The position numbers and the translations under genes were made by a program. From positions 186,001-250,000 of the forward strand of contig NZ_VSKL01000006.1 in assembly GCF_008086165.1 (NCBI RefSeq): 64,000 nt of DNA. Reading direction: 5' to 3'. Under the pieces are notes generated by a model. It did not search any database. It saw only the letters and a list, made by a program, of their open reading frames with translations, and was not told the DNA's origin. Numbering within the stretch: the first letter of the stretch is position 1; each line of letters begins with the position of its first letter. This document shows positions 7,138 through 36,780 of the stretch, piece after piece. This DNA comes from Algorimicrobium algoritergicola (GTDB lineage: Bacteria > Bacteroidota > Bacteroidia > Flavobacteriales > Flavobacteriaceae).

Positions 7138-7154
7138 ATTTCAAAAATAAGGAA

Positions 7155-7189
7155 TTGTTTTATTACTCTATACATTATAATTACCTTTG
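7155..7189 (+). promoter_or_regulatory. Bacteroidota-type promoter for pepD
   Basis: TTG at 7155-7157 and TACCTTTG at 7182-7189 fit the Bacteroidota consensus (TTG then TAnnTTTG), with a 24-base spacer, one longer than usual. The pepD start codon is 22 bases beyond the -7 element. Confidence 0.5.
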
Positions 7190-29140: not shown

Positions 29141-29152
29141 TGATAATTATCA
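29141..29152 (+). promoter_or_regulatory. FNR/CRP-family-like palindrome upstream of nirK
   Basis: TGATAATTATCA is a perfect 12-base palindrome matching the core of FNR/DNR-type sites (TTGAT-N4-ATCAA). Its centre is about 41.5 bases before the inferred nirK transcription start near 29188, the normal position of a class II activator. No -33 TTG is found, consistent with activator dependence. Confidence 0.6.
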
Positions 29153-29175: not shown

Positions 29176-29183
29176 TACATTTG
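29176..29183 (+). promoter_or_regulatory. -7 promoter element of nirK (TACATTTG)
   Basis: TACATTTG matches TAnnTTTG. The ATG of nirK is 63 bases downstream. The upstream -33 element is absent and replaced in position by the FNR-like palindrome. Confidence 0.55.
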
Positions 29184-29194
29184 TTACACAATTA

Positions 29195-29208
29195 GGATGG
29201 ATTCATCC
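29195..29208 (+). promoter_or_regulatory. Candidate Rrf2/NsrR-type operator downstream of the nirK start site
   Basis: GGATGGATTCATCC is an imperfect palindrome (GGATG...CATCC) that matches 11 of 14 positions of the perfect GGATAAATTTATCC site upstream of ric. It sits just after the predicted transcription start, where a bound repressor would block elongation or open-complex formation. Confidence 0.5.
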
Positions 29209-29246
29209 GAGTTGATTTTTTAAACACTAATTAATTATTTAAAACT

Positions 29247-30710
29247 ATGAAAACAAACAAAACTAAAAAACCTGTTTACCCAATGCTATTATCGTTGGCT
29301 TTTGCTATATTTTTTATAGGTTGTATGGACAAAGAAAAAACAACGTATGAAAATTCTGAAGATATTCCAGCGGGTCAAGAAATGATGGCAGAATTGACAT
29401 CACCACCTCATGTACCAACACCAATTGGCAGAAGAAAAGCGAAAAAGCTCAAAGTTAATATGGAAATCCTTGAGCAAGAAGGTGAGTTAACAGATGGCGT
29501 TAGATACAATTATTGGACTTTTGGAGGCTCTGTGCCAGGAAGTTTTATTAGAACACGAGTAGGTGATGAAGTGGAGTTTACATTATCTAATCACCCAGAC
29601 AATAAACTACCTCATAATATTGATTTACATGCTGTAACGGGACCTGGAGGAGGAGCAGAGTCTTCTTTCGTGGCACCAGGTTTTGAAAAGACGTTTTCTT
29701 TTAAAACGTTGAACCCAGGACTATTTGTTTATCATTGTGCTACAGCACCTGTAGGAATGCACATTGCAAATGGTATGTATGGTCTAATTTTGGTTGAACC
29801 AGAAGGCGGTTTACCACCAGTAGATAAAGAGTATTATATCATGCAAGGTGATTTCTATACCAAAGGAAAAAATGGTGAAAGAGGATTACAACCTTTTGAT
29901 ATGCAAAAAGCTGTTGATGAAAATGCCGATTATGTTGTGTTTAACGGAAGTGTTGATGGTTTAACAGGTGATAACGCTATTACAGCTCAAGTAGGAGAAA
30001 CCGTAAGGCTTTATGTTGGTAATGGTGGACCAAACCTAGTATCATCATTCCACGTTATTGGAGAAATATTTGATAAAGTATATGTTGAAGGTGGCGGCTT
30101 AATTAATGAAAATATACAAACAACTCTTATTCCAGCTGGTGGAGCTGCTATTGTAGAATTCCGTGTAGATGTACCTGGATCACTTGTTTTAGTAGATCAC
30201 TCTATTTTTAGAGCGTTTAATAAAGGTGCTTTAGGAATTCTGAATGTTGAAGGTGAAAAGAATAAGAAAATTTATTCAGGTGAAATTCGTGAAGGTATTT
30301 ATTTACCAGAAGGTCCTGGTATTCAAAGTATGCCTACAACAGATGAAATTGTAGAATCGGAAATTCCAGCAAAATCATTTGAAGAGCAAATGGAATTTGG
30401 TAAGCAAATATATATGCAAACGTGTTTTGCTTGTCACCAAGGCGAAGGTCAAGGTATTCCTAATGCGTTTCCTCCATTGGCGAAATCAGATTACTTAAAT
30501 GCTGATGTAAATCGTGCAATTAGTGCTGTAGTGAATGGCTTAAGTGGTGAGATAACTGTAAACGGAAATACATATAATAGTGTTATGACTAGACAGATGA
30601 TTTCTTCTGAAGAGGTTGCCAATGTATTAACCTACGTTTATAATAGTTGGGGTAACAATAAAGAGGTTGTTACAACAGAAATGGTAAATAAAGTAAAGAA
30701 TAAAAAATAA
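29247..30710 (+). CDS. nirK: Copper-containing nitrite reductase with C-terminal cytochrome c domain
   Basis: NirK reduces nitrite to nitric oxide. The 487-residue protein has a lipoprotein-type signal (FAIFFIGC). Two cupredoxin domains follow. Type 1 copper ligands are visible in YHCATAPVGMHIANGMYG (C164, H172, M177), with H163 a type 2 ligand; LPHNIDLHAVTGPGGGAE carries further ligands and the catalytic Asp region, and LVDHSIFRAFNKGALG the third type 2 histidine. From about residue 380 a class I cytochrome c domain is fused, with CFACH (C393, C396, H397) and an axial methionine probably in NSVMTRQM. Such NirK-cyt c fusions receive electrons directly from the quinone/cytochrome chain. It is followed by genes for an FGE-fold protein, an SCO protein and a porin. 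Confidence 0.95.
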   Translation: MKTNKTKKPVYPMLLSLAFAIFFIGCMDKEKTTYENSEDIPAGQEMMAELTSPPHVPTPIGRRKAKKLKVNMEILEQEGELTDGVRYNYWTFGGSVPGSFIRTRVGDEVEFTLSNHPDNKLPHNIDLHAVTGPGGGAESSFVAPGFEKTFSFKTLNPGLFVYHCATAPVGMHIANGMYGLILVEPEGGLPPVDKEYYIMQGDFYTKGKNGERGLQPFDMQKAVDENADYVVFNGSVDGLTGDNAITAQVGETVRLYVGNGGPNLVSSFHVIGEIFDKVYVEGGGLINENIQTTLIPAGGAAIVEFRVDVPGSLVLVDHSIFRAFNKGALGILNVEGEKNKKIYSGEIREGIYLPEGPGIQSMPTTDEIVESEIPAKSFEEQMEFGKQIYMQTCFACHQGEGQGIPNAFPPLAKSDYLNADVNRAISAVVNGLSGEITVNGNTYNSVMTRQMISSEEVANVLTYVYNSWGNNKEVVTTEMVNKVKNKK

Positions 30711-33570: not shown

Positions 33571-34032
33571 TTATTTCCAAAATTCATCAGTTATGTTATC
33601 TTCAAAAGATTCTGGCTGGTGAATTTTTGCTATATGCTGAAGTTGTTCTTCAGTTGCTACTTTCTGTATTTCAGGGAATAAGATACGCTCTTCAAAACGA
33701 ATGTGCTGTTCCAATTCTTCTTCAATTTTACTCAATGATTTGTCTAAACTGGTATCTTCTGCAAATAAGCGTTTTAAGCGTCTATGATCTGCAAGCGCTT
33801 TTTTTACCAACTCATTTTGAGAATCTAAAATGGAAAAAATTTTAGCTTCCTCTAATTCAAAATGTGGAATTAAATGATGTTCAAAAAACCAATCTGCATA
33901 GGTTTTCATACGTTCTACTGAAACGTTTTTACTGAAACCTGACCTGATTTTCCATGATAATAACAAGCCATGATGATGCTCACGACTTAATGGTTGCAAT
34001 GCTTTATGACGTTTAAGTGGTTTGGGTTCCAT
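33571..34032 (-). CDS. Hemerythrin-domain protein
   Basis: The product has 153 residues with no signal peptide. It carries the HHE four-helix motifs: SREHHHGLLLSWKIR, ADWFFEHHLIPHFELEEAKIF and LEQHIRFEERILFPEIQ, enough ligands for a di-iron centre. Such proteins bind O2 or NO or act as di-iron sensors. Its start overlaps the end of the upstream membrane-protein gene by 20 bases, so the two are very likely co-expressed, and Ric and an Rrf2 regulator lie further upstream. A role in NO handling is inferred from this context. Confidence 0.88.
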   Translation of the reverse strand: MEPKPLKRHKALQPLSREHHHGLLLSWKIRSGFSKNVSVERMKTYADWFFEHHLIPHFELEEAKIFSILDSQNELVKKALADHRRLKRLFAEDTSLDKSLSKIEEELEQHIRFEERILFPEIQKVATEEQLQHIAKIHQPESFEDNITDEFWK

Positions 34033-35215
34033 ACGATTTTTGTTTAAGATAACTTATTAAAATAAGCGCAATACTAACTGGTAGAAAGATACTTACAACA
34101 AATAAAATGCTGTAATAATTTGGCAAAAGTCCGATACCTAAAAAGTAAAATGCGCCTTGAATAAATAAAATAGCTTCCGTTAAAATAAAGCCCAGCAAAA
34201 ATAAGGATAAGCCAACGGAAATAAAACTACTTGGCAGTATAGTTTTAGATTGTAATAAAAATGCAAATAAAAATCCACTAATAACACCTAACATAGTCAA
34301 GTGAATAAAGCCAATAATAAAATTATGATGCTCAAATAGTTCCGAAGAAAATTGCGGAATTATAGATAGGGTTTGTAAGATAGTTTTAATGATAAAACAG
34401 CCTAACGAAAACTGATACATACGTATAACTAGCAGAGATGTTTCGGCCTTAAACGTTTGAAATTTACGTTTTATAATTTTTATGAAATAGAAAAGTGAAA
34501 CTAATTGTAACAGGATCCCTAATCCGTTAATCCAATAGAGTAGTGGGTGACTTGCAAACCATTGTATAGGTAAGGCAAAGGTTAAAACGGTAGCTAAAAC
34601 AAGATATTTAAAGAATGCTTTTGCGTTTTCTGATGGTTGAATGTTTAACTGATGACAAGCAATTGCTAAAACAGCAAATAGAAACCAGCCATTAAATTGA
34701 AAGTTTAAAAAGAACTGAATAGCTATTTGATAAAAAGCCGATGCTTGACCTAATAAACTTACAGCAGGCCCTAAACACCAAACACCAATGGTAGAAATAA
34801 CCATAAAAAGCAAGGATGCCTTAACCAATTGTTTTACAAAGCTGTTTTCTATCTGTAAGTCATTCCAAATCCGATACACAAAATAATAACTACAAAAAAT
34901 ATGTAACGTTGAAAAGCTTATTGAAATAGCAGCATATCCTTGAAACGGAAAACTAATCATCATGCCAATAACTGCAATTTGGGTCAGCCAAAAAAGTTTG
35001 GAATAAATTGGTTTTTGTTCTGGTACAAAATAGTGAACATAAAAGCAATAAAGCATTAAGTAGGCCCAACCTAACATGGCAACATGAGAATGTGCATGCG
35101 TAAGAAACCTATAATTGATAGCTATGGGATTCAGGTAAAAATAGCGCAACGTCAAACCCATGAGTGCTGCTATTAAAAAATTAAATAGACAGGTAAGAAC
35201 CGGATTTTTTGGCAT
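34013..35215 (-). CDS. Polytopic His-rich membrane protein, heme-copper-oxidase/NnrS-like
   Basis: The product has 400 residues and about twelve hydrophobic helices. Conserved-looking histidines lie in or next to membrane segments: FLTHAHSHVAMLGWAYLMLY near residue 37, FSTLHIFCSYYF, and HHNFIIGFIHLTMLG near residue 290. The spacing recalls single-subunit heme-copper oxidase/cbb3 subunit I-like and NnrS proteins, but I cannot identify a full catalytic-subunit ligand set. NnrS is a heme- and copper-containing membrane protein of denitrifiers. It lies between ric and the hemerythrin gene, overlapping the latter by 20 bases, which supports a role in NO or O2 chemistry. The identity is tentative. 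Confidence 0.7.
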   Translation of the reverse strand: MPKNPVLTCLFNFLIAALMGLTLRYFYLNPIAINYRFLTHAHSHVAMLGWAYLMLYCFYVHYFVPEQKPIYSKLFWLTQIAVIGMMISFPFQGYAAISISFSTLHIFCSYYFVYRIWNDLQIENSFVKQLVKASLLFMVISTIGVWCLGPAVSLLGQASAFYQIAIQFFLNFQFNGWFLFAVLAIACHQLNIQPSENAKAFFKYLVLATVLTFALPIQWFASHPLLYWINGLGILLQLVSLFYFIKIIKRKFQTFKAETSLLVIRMYQFSLGCFIIKTILQTLSIIPQFSSELFEHHNFIIGFIHLTMLGVISGFLFAFLLQSKTILPSSFISVGLSLFLLGFILTEAILFIQGAFYFLGIGLLPNYYSILFVVSIFLPVSIALILISYLKQKSYGTQTT

Positions 35216-35424: not shown

Positions 35425-36162
35425 TTACTCTTGGAAAAAGCGCTGCTCTAATTTGGCGGCTTCAGGGAATAAAATGTTATTTTCTAAATGAATGTGTAGG
35501 TGTAAGTCTTTTTCAAATTCGTCTAACATGGCAAATGTTACTTTATATGTATTGCATGCATCTGCAGGTGGTGTATAATTGTTAGTTATAAGAGCAATTT
35601 TTCTAAAGCGTTCACCTTCGTTTTCATGTTCTTCCATCATCATGGCAATTGGATTTTCAACGGTTCCAAAATGTGGCGCTTCAATAGCTTGTCCGGCCAA
35701 AGTTGCTTTTACCATTTTTTTGATGAATGGAAATAGTATTAATTCTTCTTTTTTCATGTGCGCTGAAAGTTCGCCAGCACAACCAGTAAAGAGTTCATTA
35801 ATTTTAAATAATTCCGGGTGATTTCCACCATGCACTTTACATAATTTATCTAAAAACTGACGTAGTACGGGAATTTTTTCTTCCACATATCTATGGTGTG
35901 TTTTCTCAATATATTCTGCAAGTAAATCTAATGGCCATGATTTGTAATCTATGGCACTATTGCCTTTGGAATCTAAAACAGCATCAAGTTTACTTAAAAG
36001 TTCATCTGGATTTACGCCATTTTTATTACAAACTTCTTCTACAGTTCTGTGTCCTTTGCAACAAAAATCTATTCCATAGTTACTGAATACAGCAGCTGTT
36101 CTAAAATCATCGGCTACAAATTCGCCAATCGGTTTGCTCATGTTTTTATGTAATGTTTCCAT
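35425..36162 (-). CDS. ric: Iron-sulfur cluster repair di-iron protein Ric (ScdA/YtfE/DUF542)
   Basis: This 245-residue cytosolic protein restores Fe-S clusters damaged by NO or oxidants. The N-terminal ScdA_N domain has GIDFCCKGHRTVEEVC. The hemerythrin-like domain follows: EYIEKTHHRYV, VHGGNHPEL, LSAHMKKEELILFPFIKKM, MMEEHENEGERF and HLHIHLENNILFPEA, supplying the di-iron ligands. The start at 36162 gives METLHKNM; an internal ATG at 36141 (MSKPIGEF) is possible. A perfect operator-like palindrome (36178-36191) lies 15 bases upstream, and an Rrf2 gene is 72 bases upstream on the same strand, fitting NO-responsive control. Confidence 0.93.
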   Translation of the reverse strand: METLHKNMSKPIGEFVADDFRTAAVFSNYGIDFCCKGHRTVEEVCNKNGVNPDELLSKLDAVLDSKGNSAIDYKSWPLDLLAEYIEKTHHRYVEEKIPVLRQFLDKLCKVHGGNHPELFKINELFTGCAGELSAHMKKEELILFPFIKKMVKATLAGQAIEAPHFGTVENPIAMMMEEHENEGERFRKIALITNNYTPPADACNTYKVTFAMLDEFEKDLHLHIHLENNILFPEAAKLEQRFFQE

Positions 36163-36177
36163 ATTGTTACTTATTTC

Positions 36178-36191
36178 GGATAAATTTATCC
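36178..36191 (-). promoter_or_regulatory. Perfect palindromic operator GGATAAATTTATCC upstream of ric
   Basis: The 14-base sequence is exactly self-complementary and lies 16 bases upstream of the ric ATG. A 12-of-14 match occurs in the Rrf2-gene promoter (36712-36725) and an 11-of-14 match after the nirK start. This set is best explained as the binding site of the Rrf2 protein encoded next to it. Confidence 0.6.
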
Positions 36192-36234
36192 TATTTATAA
36201 TTAAATTTTTTTTACGTTTACTTATTTGTGTTAT

Positions 36235-36669
36235 TTAAATTTTTAAAAAGGTTGCACCTGATTTGATGTCTAATGCTAGTTCTTCCAAATTCGTTGTTTC
36301 CAACATGACTTTCAAATCATTTCGTATATCTTTAAACTTATCATGTACAGGACATGGATGGTTTTCATCGCAGGTGTGCAGGCCTAATCCGCAACCGTTA
36401 TAAATTTTATCCCCATCAATTGCACGAACAATTTCTTCTAATTTAATACTCGAAATTTGCGATTTTACAATTTCAAAACCACCATGCGCTCCTTTTACGG
36501 AGTTAATGATGTTATGTCTAGCTAAATCTTGTAAAATTTTTGCTGTAAACGCTTCTGGTGAAGCAATTTCTTTAGCAATCTCTTTTAAACTCACCCGCTT
36601 TTCTTGGTAGGAGTTTAAGGCGATAAAAATGGAGGCTTTGATGCCGTATTCACAAGCTTTAGAAAACAT
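36235..36669 (-). CDS. Rrf2-family transcriptional regulator, probably NO/redox-sensing (NsrR-like)
   Basis: The product has 144 residues. The N-terminal winged helix has CEYGIKASIFIALNS and ASPEAFTAKILQDLARHNIINSVKGAHGGFEI (written here across the helix-turn-helix and wing). The C-terminal half has three cysteines in CGLGLHTCDENHPCPVHDKF, the usual Fe-S ligand loop of NsrR and IscR. NsrR senses NO through its cluster. Location directly before ric and the presence of the same palindrome in its own promoter support NsrR-like autorepression; IscR-type function cannot be ruled out from sequence alone. Confidence 0.88.
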   Translation of the reverse strand: MFSKACEYGIKASIFIALNSYQEKRVSLKEIAKEIASPEAFTAKILQDLARHNIINSVKGAHGGFEIVKSQISSIKLEEIVRAIDGDKIYNGCGLGLHTCDENHPCPVHDKFKDIRNDLKVMLETTNLEELALDIKSGATFLKI

Positions 36670-36686
36670 AGTTTTGTTTTATGGGA

Positions 36687-36725
36687 CAAATATATAACAT
36701 ATTTTTAATTCAGACAAATTTATCC
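36687..36725 (-). promoter_or_regulatory. Promoter of the Rrf2 gene with overlapping operator
   Basis: On the minus strand TTG (36717-36715), a 20-base spacer and TATATTTG (36694-36687) form a full Bacteroidota promoter. The operator-like AGACAAATTTATCC at 36712-36725 covers the -33 element, so the regulator would block its own transcription. Confidence 0.6.
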
Positions 36726-36780
36726 GAATTAAAAATTATATTTTGTAAATTGACGTGTAAGTAAGTATTTATGGTAAACG

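Follow-up and report, generated by a model that had tools for sequence, protein, structure and literature searches.

A 144-residue regulator of the Rrf2 family, encoded in the 64,000-nucleotide stretch of the Algorimicrobium algoritergicola genome analysed here (hereafter, the window), probably acts as an autoregulated repressor that is released by nitric oxide (NO) through a three-cysteine iron–sulphur (Fe-S) cluster and controls ric together with denitrification genes. The operator behind this reading is a 24-bp dyad, consensus AATTMGGAYAAATTTRTCCKAATT, found before rrf2, ric and, in degraded form, nirK; the operator and its predicted regulon are supported by sequence comparison with relatives.

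The rrf2 gene (36235..36669, minus strand) was characterized by family models, alignment and a structure model, and its product carries conserved cysteines at C93, C100 and C106. On the same strand, ric (35425..36162) encodes a 245-residue di-iron Fe-S repair protein of the ScdA/YtfE type (TIGR03652, 242.7 bits; cut-off, 204.7), and is followed on its 3′ side by the gene of a 400-residue membrane protein (34013..35215), for which a structure model predicts a heme-copper-oxidase fold. The cluster ends with the gene of a 153-residue hemerythrin-domain protein (33571..34032), found as an open reading frame (ORF) with a Pfam search. On the plus strand, nirK (29247..30710) encodes a copper nitrite reductase with a C-terminal cytochrome c domain (TIGR02376, 360.4 bits; cut-off, 296.3).

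A preliminary description of this DNA had linked ric, rrf2 and nirK through a shared 14-bp palindrome, and all three copies were present at the positions claimed, namely as the exact GGATAAATTTATCC at 36178–36191, separated by 15 bases from the ric ATG (36162, minus strand), as AGACAAATTTATCC with two mismatches at 36712–36725, and as GGATGGATTCATCC with three mismatches at 29195–29208. Taken alone, the 14-mer did not carry the case, as the eight matches with up to three mismatches in the window correspond to the chance level (mean of 7.47 in shuffled sequences). It is, however, the core of the larger 24-bp dyad, and there the case stood: the pattern AATTCGGATAAATTTATCCGAATT matched 36173–36196 with three mismatches and 36707–36730 with two, compared with no match in 100 shuffles. 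Accordingly, the rrf2 operator (AATTCAGACAAATTTATCCGAATT on the plus strand, 36707..36730) and the ric operator (ATTTCGGATAAATTTATCCTATTT on the plus strand, 36173..36196) were assigned from the sequence, a model search and orthologous sites. The matrix derived from the sites of relatives returned the same consensus, with near-invariant GA and TC.

The degraded nirK operator (AATTAGGATGGATTCATCCGAGTT, 29190..29213) was assigned from the sequence and the matrix. It ranked third in the window by the trained matrix, with a score of 13.6 that permuted matrices reached on average 0.155 times per window (maximum of 3; 200 permutations), and it was absent from the genome-wide model-search list at an E value of 10. 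Among five genomes of the same genus, four had nirK orthologues with copies of the site scoring 28.3, 21.7, 14.5 and 15.7, and nirK was not found in the stretch examined of the fifth (G005). Variation among the four sites was mainly central, and the bases 5′ of GAT differed in one. The notion that an AT-rich palindrome was merely seen three times by chance can draw on the background frequency of the 14-mer with three mismatches, but we consider its probability negligible, as it is refuted by the 24-mer shuffles, the model search of the genome, the comparison with permuted matrices and conservation before orthologues.

The check set beforehand was conservation of the motif upstream of orthologues and above background in relatives, and both were found. 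The Rrf2 protein occurs in 35 of 60 relatives at an E value of 1e-10 or better, paralogues included. A matrix was grown from the window consensus and trained on 30 loci; on these same loci, 26 of the 30 Rrf2 genes of relatives (including paralogues) had a site scoring above 8 within 110 bp upstream. Of the 40 sites above 8 bits in the training regions, 26 lay upstream (30 regions) and 14 downstream (29 regions), and a fixed 22-mer with up to five mismatches was found in 17 of the 30 loci. A second set comprised 79 named loci (1,534,608 bp) from one scan of GTDB genomes, mostly from Flavobacteriaceae, plus Marivirga, metagenome-assembled genomes labelled Lewinella, Sphingobacteriaceae and others. 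These loci were picked around rrf2, so that the neighbourhood of target genes is enriched by design, and at least two coincide with training genomes (L129 with L017 and L084 with L013). The set yielded 158 sites scoring at least 20, 169 at least 18 and 183 at least 15, compared with means of 0, 0.55 and 1.5 (maxima of 0, 5 and 8) for 20 symmetric column permutations of the matrix. Within 150 bp upstream of rrf2, a site of at least 18 was present in 56 of the 79 loci and one of at least 13 in 62, with the operator centre at a median of 53 bp before the start codon. Together with the 26 of 30 training genes, this comparison supports the autoregulation proposed earlier. Twelve of the 17 loci without a site of at least 13 in those 150 bp belong to Flavobacterium; among the 17 loci drawn in all, four of five from this genus had rrf2 further along the cluster and sites between norC and ric.

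The sites also follow the regulator across genomes. Genome-wide searches used a model built from 27 sites; they are less biased than the locus sets, although only filtered candidates were scored. Relatives were counted as having this Rrf2 at 45% identity or more, a chosen cut; a site at an E value of up to 0.01 was found in 19 of 25 of these versus 2 of 35 others (Fisher, 1.3e-8, a partly circular comparison), and sites away from rrf2 in 8 of 25 versus 2 of 35 (p = 0.012). Among 296 genomes of the phylum, seven had a match at an E value of 0.002 or better, including the genome studied here. One of the seven, from another order of the class (L208), has rrf2 between two sites and, after it, an ORF that we take to encode a truncated-globin-like protein. 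These data bear on an alternative in which a different N-oxide regulator binds the palindrome and controls rrf2, the Rrf2 protein being a mere target. Binding of Rrf2 to the palindrome is a prediction from sequence, and in the nirK and nos promoters the sites lie near FNR-like sites, both of which would suit such a regulator. Against it, the sites track this Rrf2 across genomes and occupy a fixed place before rrf2, a paralogous Rrf2 on the norCB side has a related operator before itself and before norC, and the FNR-like sites are separate, different palindromes. We therefore hold this alternative to be very unlikely and infer that the Rrf2 protein is the binder.

With regard to the genes behind the sites, 173 of the 183 sites of at least 15 adjoin rrf2, ric, nirK, the cytochrome gene of the nos operon, norC or qNOR (20 adjoin two of them), five adjoin a gene for a 132-residue protein, and five adjoin none of the named targets. 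The latter precede an SDR gene, a hemerythrin-PAS gene and a cupin gene, with two unassigned, although one counted as unassigned (L125, at 7066) lies 65 bp before a tblastn match to Rrf2 that ORF calling had missed. As counted per locus, where some promoters may fall outside the locus, nirK was present in 30 of the 79 loci with sites in 26, ric in 71 with sites in 59, norC in 12 with sites in 9, and nosZ in 24 with sites before its cytochrome gene in 11. The link between ric, rrf2 and nirK put forward in the preliminary description is thus borne out by sites before their orthologues.

In the own genome (3,536,492 bases), 7 of the 17 places listed by the model search were examined, and the four highest-ranking ones lie before ric and rrf2, before the nosZ operon and before a cupin gene. 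The nos site (G000:C27:38219) lies before a cytochrome-fasciclin-nosZ-nosL-nosD-ABC operon and is also found in G001, G002 and G004; the nirK site is found in G001. The fourth site (G000:C22:469459; matrix score, 23.8; positions 1159–1182 of L219, G000:C22:468300-470700) precedes a 112-residue cupin-like gene. L207 and L141 each have a site followed by a gene that looks similar by eye, in one case with a qNOR-like gene coming right after it. With up to one mismatch, GGAYAAATTTATCC occurs at four places of the own genome, namely ric, rrf2 and two inside coding sequence. Operator matches inside coding sequence of this genome were judged to be chance or left open, as were sites that in single relatives lie within unrelated ORFs or at their ends (L147, L148 and L150) or before ORFs that are presumably hflC-like (L154) and SDR-like (L206). 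The same applies in the own genome to a site-like sequence (20.2; positions 1158–1181 of L221, G000:C25:209300-211700) directly before an ORF that we assume to be CysH-like; it is perhaps the operator of another Rrf2 protein.

By sequence models, the regulator exceeds the cut-offs of the Rrf2 superfamily (PF02082, 84.8 against 30; TIGR00738, 86 against 73.3). With the NsrR model NF008240, whose cut-off of 182 was exceeded by one of 14 control genomes, it scored 31 bits (30.4 when the whole genome was searched), and a paralogue in the same genome scored higher (38–39 bits), so that NO sensing cannot be read from family membership. Scores were likewise below the curated cut-offs of IscR (TIGR02010, 52.6 against 207.55), the Xanthomonas-type SUF regulator (TIGR02944, 59.8 against 110.65) and CymR. 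The structure model (mean pLDDT of 82.8) matches the PDB structures of CymR, RsrR, NsrR and IscR, with which it shares the fold; among 12 solved chains ranked by sequence profile, RsrR came first and NsrR last. Aligned sequence identity to the window Rrf2 was 21% for Escherichia coli NsrR and 25% for E. coli IscR. The preliminary description had ascribed to this protein the three-cysteine loop of NsrR. Three cysteines do stand, with C93, C100 and C106 invariant in 30 Rrf2 sequences, but their spacing differs (CX6CX5C, versus CX4CX5C in the NsrR and CX5CX5C in the IscR of E. coli), and the cut-off of the NsrR model was missed.

Comparison likewise supports an operator unlike known NsrR sites, as the published NsrR motif gATGyAT-N5-ATrCATc occurs at background frequency in the window (nine matches with up to three mismatches, 11.9 expected), and the promoters of rrf2, ric and nirK lack it at this tolerance. 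Membership in NsrR proper was therefore rejected, based on the curated model and the motif. The predicted sites nevertheless lie before genes typical of NsrR control (ytfE/ric, nirK or nor genes), and the best reading is that the window Rrf2 works like NsrR, although the curated model does not class it as one. Its targets, together with the three cysteines, suggest NO as the probable signal.

The same operator and the same Rrf2 could instead answer to iron or Fe-S status, as in IscR and RirA, or to redox, with the denitrification genes controlled as clients rich in iron, copper and haem. The curated scores fit this alternative in being nearer to those for the SUF regulator and IscR than to that for NsrR, with none above its cut-off, and the half-site arrangement GAY-N6-RTC resembles the GAC...GTC half-sites of the IscR type 1 operator. 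The targets of IscR, RsrR and CymR differ from those found here. Against the alternative, the identified genes behind sites, in the part of the listed places that was examined, are ric, nirK, nos, norC, qNOR, the cupin gene and, once, the truncated-globin-like gene, and they include no isc, suf or iron-uptake gene. With the own site before the CysH-like gene as a caveat, we regard iron or redox sensing as unlikely and retain release by NO as the preferred reading.

Bacteroidetes promoters consist of a TTTG element at −33 and TAnnTTTG at −7. The rrf2 promoter, on the minus strand, has a −7 element of this type (TATATTTG, 36687..36694) whose position is conserved in relatives, and, after a 20-nucleotide spacer, a −33 TTTG (36715..36718) that lies inside the operator, as the earlier claim of an overlap between the 14-mer and this element had it. 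In 55 of 60 rrf2 sites, TAnnTTTG begins 22–25 bp past the operator centre. The G that creates TTTG in the gene-proximal half-site is found in 36 of 60 rrf2 sites compared with 11 of 58 ric sites (p = 5.5e-6), and a C stands at its mirror base in 10 of the 60 rrf2 sites. At nirK, the −7 element (TACATTTG, 29176..29183, plus strand), assigned from the sequence and the nirK sites of relatives, is closely followed by the operator, again as described before. Across relatives, 12 of 23 nirK sites have TAnnTTTG 25–29 bp ahead of the operator centre and five have it 47–49 bp beyond; in nos sites, the −7 element lies 47–49 bp after the centre in 9 of 11. A sigma-70 scan revealed no excess over shuffled sequences (14 versus 16.1).

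An FNR-like palindrome (TGATAATTATCA, 29141..29152) lies 5′ of the nirK promoter, based on the sequence and the nirK sites of relatives. Scored with a permissive pattern, FNR-like matches accompany all 23 nirK sites (16 at 58–65 bp before the operator centre, five at 12–13 bp after it) and all 11 nos sites, where they start 12–14 bp past the centre. They were also found at 7 of 11 norC sites and at all five sites before the 132-residue gene, and at 5 of 60 rrf2, 9 of 58 ric and none of 10 qNOR sites; nirK and nos combined (34 of 34) thus differ from rrf2, ric and qNOR (14 of 128; Fisher, 4e-24). The nirK and nos promoters of the own genome show the same layout of operator and FNR-like site as those of relatives. 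At nos, the operator is 5′ of the FNR-like site, and simple promoter occlusion does not apply.

In the mechanism that we propose, an Rrf2 dimer, probably with an Fe-S cluster on C93, C100 and C106, would bind the 24-bp dyad and repress rather than activate. At its own gene it would do so by masking the −33 element, and at nirK from a position just past the transcription start; ric with its downstream genes and the nosZ operon would be repressed as well. NO arising from nitrite reduction would damage the cluster and free the protein from DNA, which would switch on the genes for Fe-S repair, nitrite reduction and N2O reduction jointly. Since nirK and nos carry an FNR-like site, their full expression would require low oxygen (or another Crp/Fnr signal) as well as NO. 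At nos, where the operator abuts the FNR-like site in all 11 cases, Rrf2 and the Crp/Fnr protein may compete, in which case N2O reductase would be made only under low oxygen with NO at hand; this order of events is the one that the site layout suggests.

One regulator for all denitrification genes of the own genome was considered and rejected. The norCB cluster, whose neighbours are presumably norE-, norD- and norQ-like, holds a second Rrf2 gene that is 32% identical to the first (L170, G000:C11:868000-886000). Its promoter contains AATTAGGACTAAAATATCTTTTTT, scoring 17.6, and the norC promoter (G000:C11) contains AAGACTAAAAGGTCTT, scoring only 4.0; the two sites lie at 7149–7172 and about 13133–13156 of L170. 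Because the norC promoter scores 4.0 and carries a different palindrome, and the cluster has a second Rrf2 with a related site, norCB is more likely under the predicted control of this paralogue. The paralogue operator has the same GAY-N6-RTC geometry as the rrf2 and ric operator, with different flanks. Two relatives of the genus retain both promoter sites with at most single changes; AAGACTAAAAGGTCTT is unchanged in G002 and has one change in G001. Among the 60 relatives, norC is present in 11, six of which (G000, G001, G002, G008, G023 and G059) have the second Rrf2 at 50% identity or more; G007 has the second Rrf2 without norC. The norC promoters of G010, G042, G021, G052 and G059 contain no recognisable site of either kind, and the start of the second Rrf2 was not found by string search in 5 of 12 loci. 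A gene duplication that split the NO regulon between two Rrf2 proteins is possible. More broadly, and as a tentative proposal that we hold somewhat short of probable, Bacteroidota with this nosZ type may govern denitrification with an Rrf2 lineage of their own, which would have a private operator code, have been duplicated into sister regulators (ric, nirK and nos falling to the first, norCB in this genus to the second) and compete with the Crp/Fnr protein at nos.

NsrR is known from beta- and most gamma-proteobacteria, Bacillus and Streptomyces, with the motif used above, as given in the parts of the comparative study drawn on here (Rodionov et al. 2005, PMC1274295). As described there, the NsrR regulon resembles the present one in its Rrf2-family regulator, its palindromic operators and the targets dnrN/ytfE (ric), nirK and norB; it differs in that GAY and RTC are here 6 bp apart in a 24-bp dyad and that the predicted set also takes in a nosZ operon and a cupin gene. 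The same parts of that study mention Bacteroides and Porphyromonas only in connection with HcpR. HcpR and further Crp/Fnr regulators of N-oxide genes control nitrosative-stress genes in Bacteroidetes, and FNR-like sites occur at nirK and nos here, but these regulators are from another protein family and have another palindrome (GTAACnnnnGTTAC for HcpR2) (PMC1274295). In Magnetospirillum, according to the consulted portions of the report, NsrR directly regulates the nir, nor and nos promoters and an NO donor lowers its binding (PMC11014258); the targets are alike, here by predicted sites, whereas that protein clusters with NsrR-like regulators, has a 19-bp motif and comes from an alphaproteobacterium. 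A 2018 metagenome study, in the sections used here, found Rrf2 genes enriched beside clade II nos clusters, with a role that was hard to predict (PMC6264515).

No description of this operator or regulon was found in the titles and abstracts of the open-licence literature searched, and the logic is NsrR-like, so that we read the system as a variant of a known NO switch. What appears to be new is that another Rrf2 lineage, using an operator of its own, follows this logic. If the reading is true, flavobacteria have their own version of the nitric-oxide switch. Coastal-sediment flavobacteria carry clade II nosZ, an N2O sink; the operator gives the nos-adjacent Rrf2 a testable role, with a predicted binding site, a list of target genes and a model that makes nirK and nos expression depend jointly on NO and on a Crp/Fnr signal. 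Moreover, where experimental work is lacking, the matrix can be used to predict the NO regulons of flavobacterial genomes.

Several observations touch on neighbouring genes and relatives. In another family, L029 (G040) has a related Rrf2 (48% identity) without such a site upstream; neighbouring AT-rich dyads suggest a changed operator. In five Winogradskyella loci (L078, L088, L094, L097 and L098), the operator before the 132-residue gene is centred 19 bp before the start in all five cases, and the gene adjoins the nos cluster in both loci drawn. Positions 1661–3022 of L042 (G003) encode, behind an operator, a heme-copper oxidase subunit whose N terminus is extended by 150 residues, also present in G004:C66; its match in the own genome, the cbb3-type gene, is only 33% identical, and it is a candidate NO reductase variant. 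The 400-residue membrane protein 3′ of ric had no Pfam or NCBIfam match at an E value of 0.001. Its confident model (pLDDT of 91.7) matches heme-copper oxidase subunits (cbb3 CcoN and NorB) with TM scores by query of 0.69–0.74 and 11–13% identity; possibly it is a degenerate oxidase that plays an NnrS-like part in defence against NO. The protein is present in 55 of the 79 loci, mostly 3′ of ric. Among 29 sequences, His42 and His305 are found in all and His40 and His44 in 28; position 171 is histidine in 28 and asparagine in the window copy.
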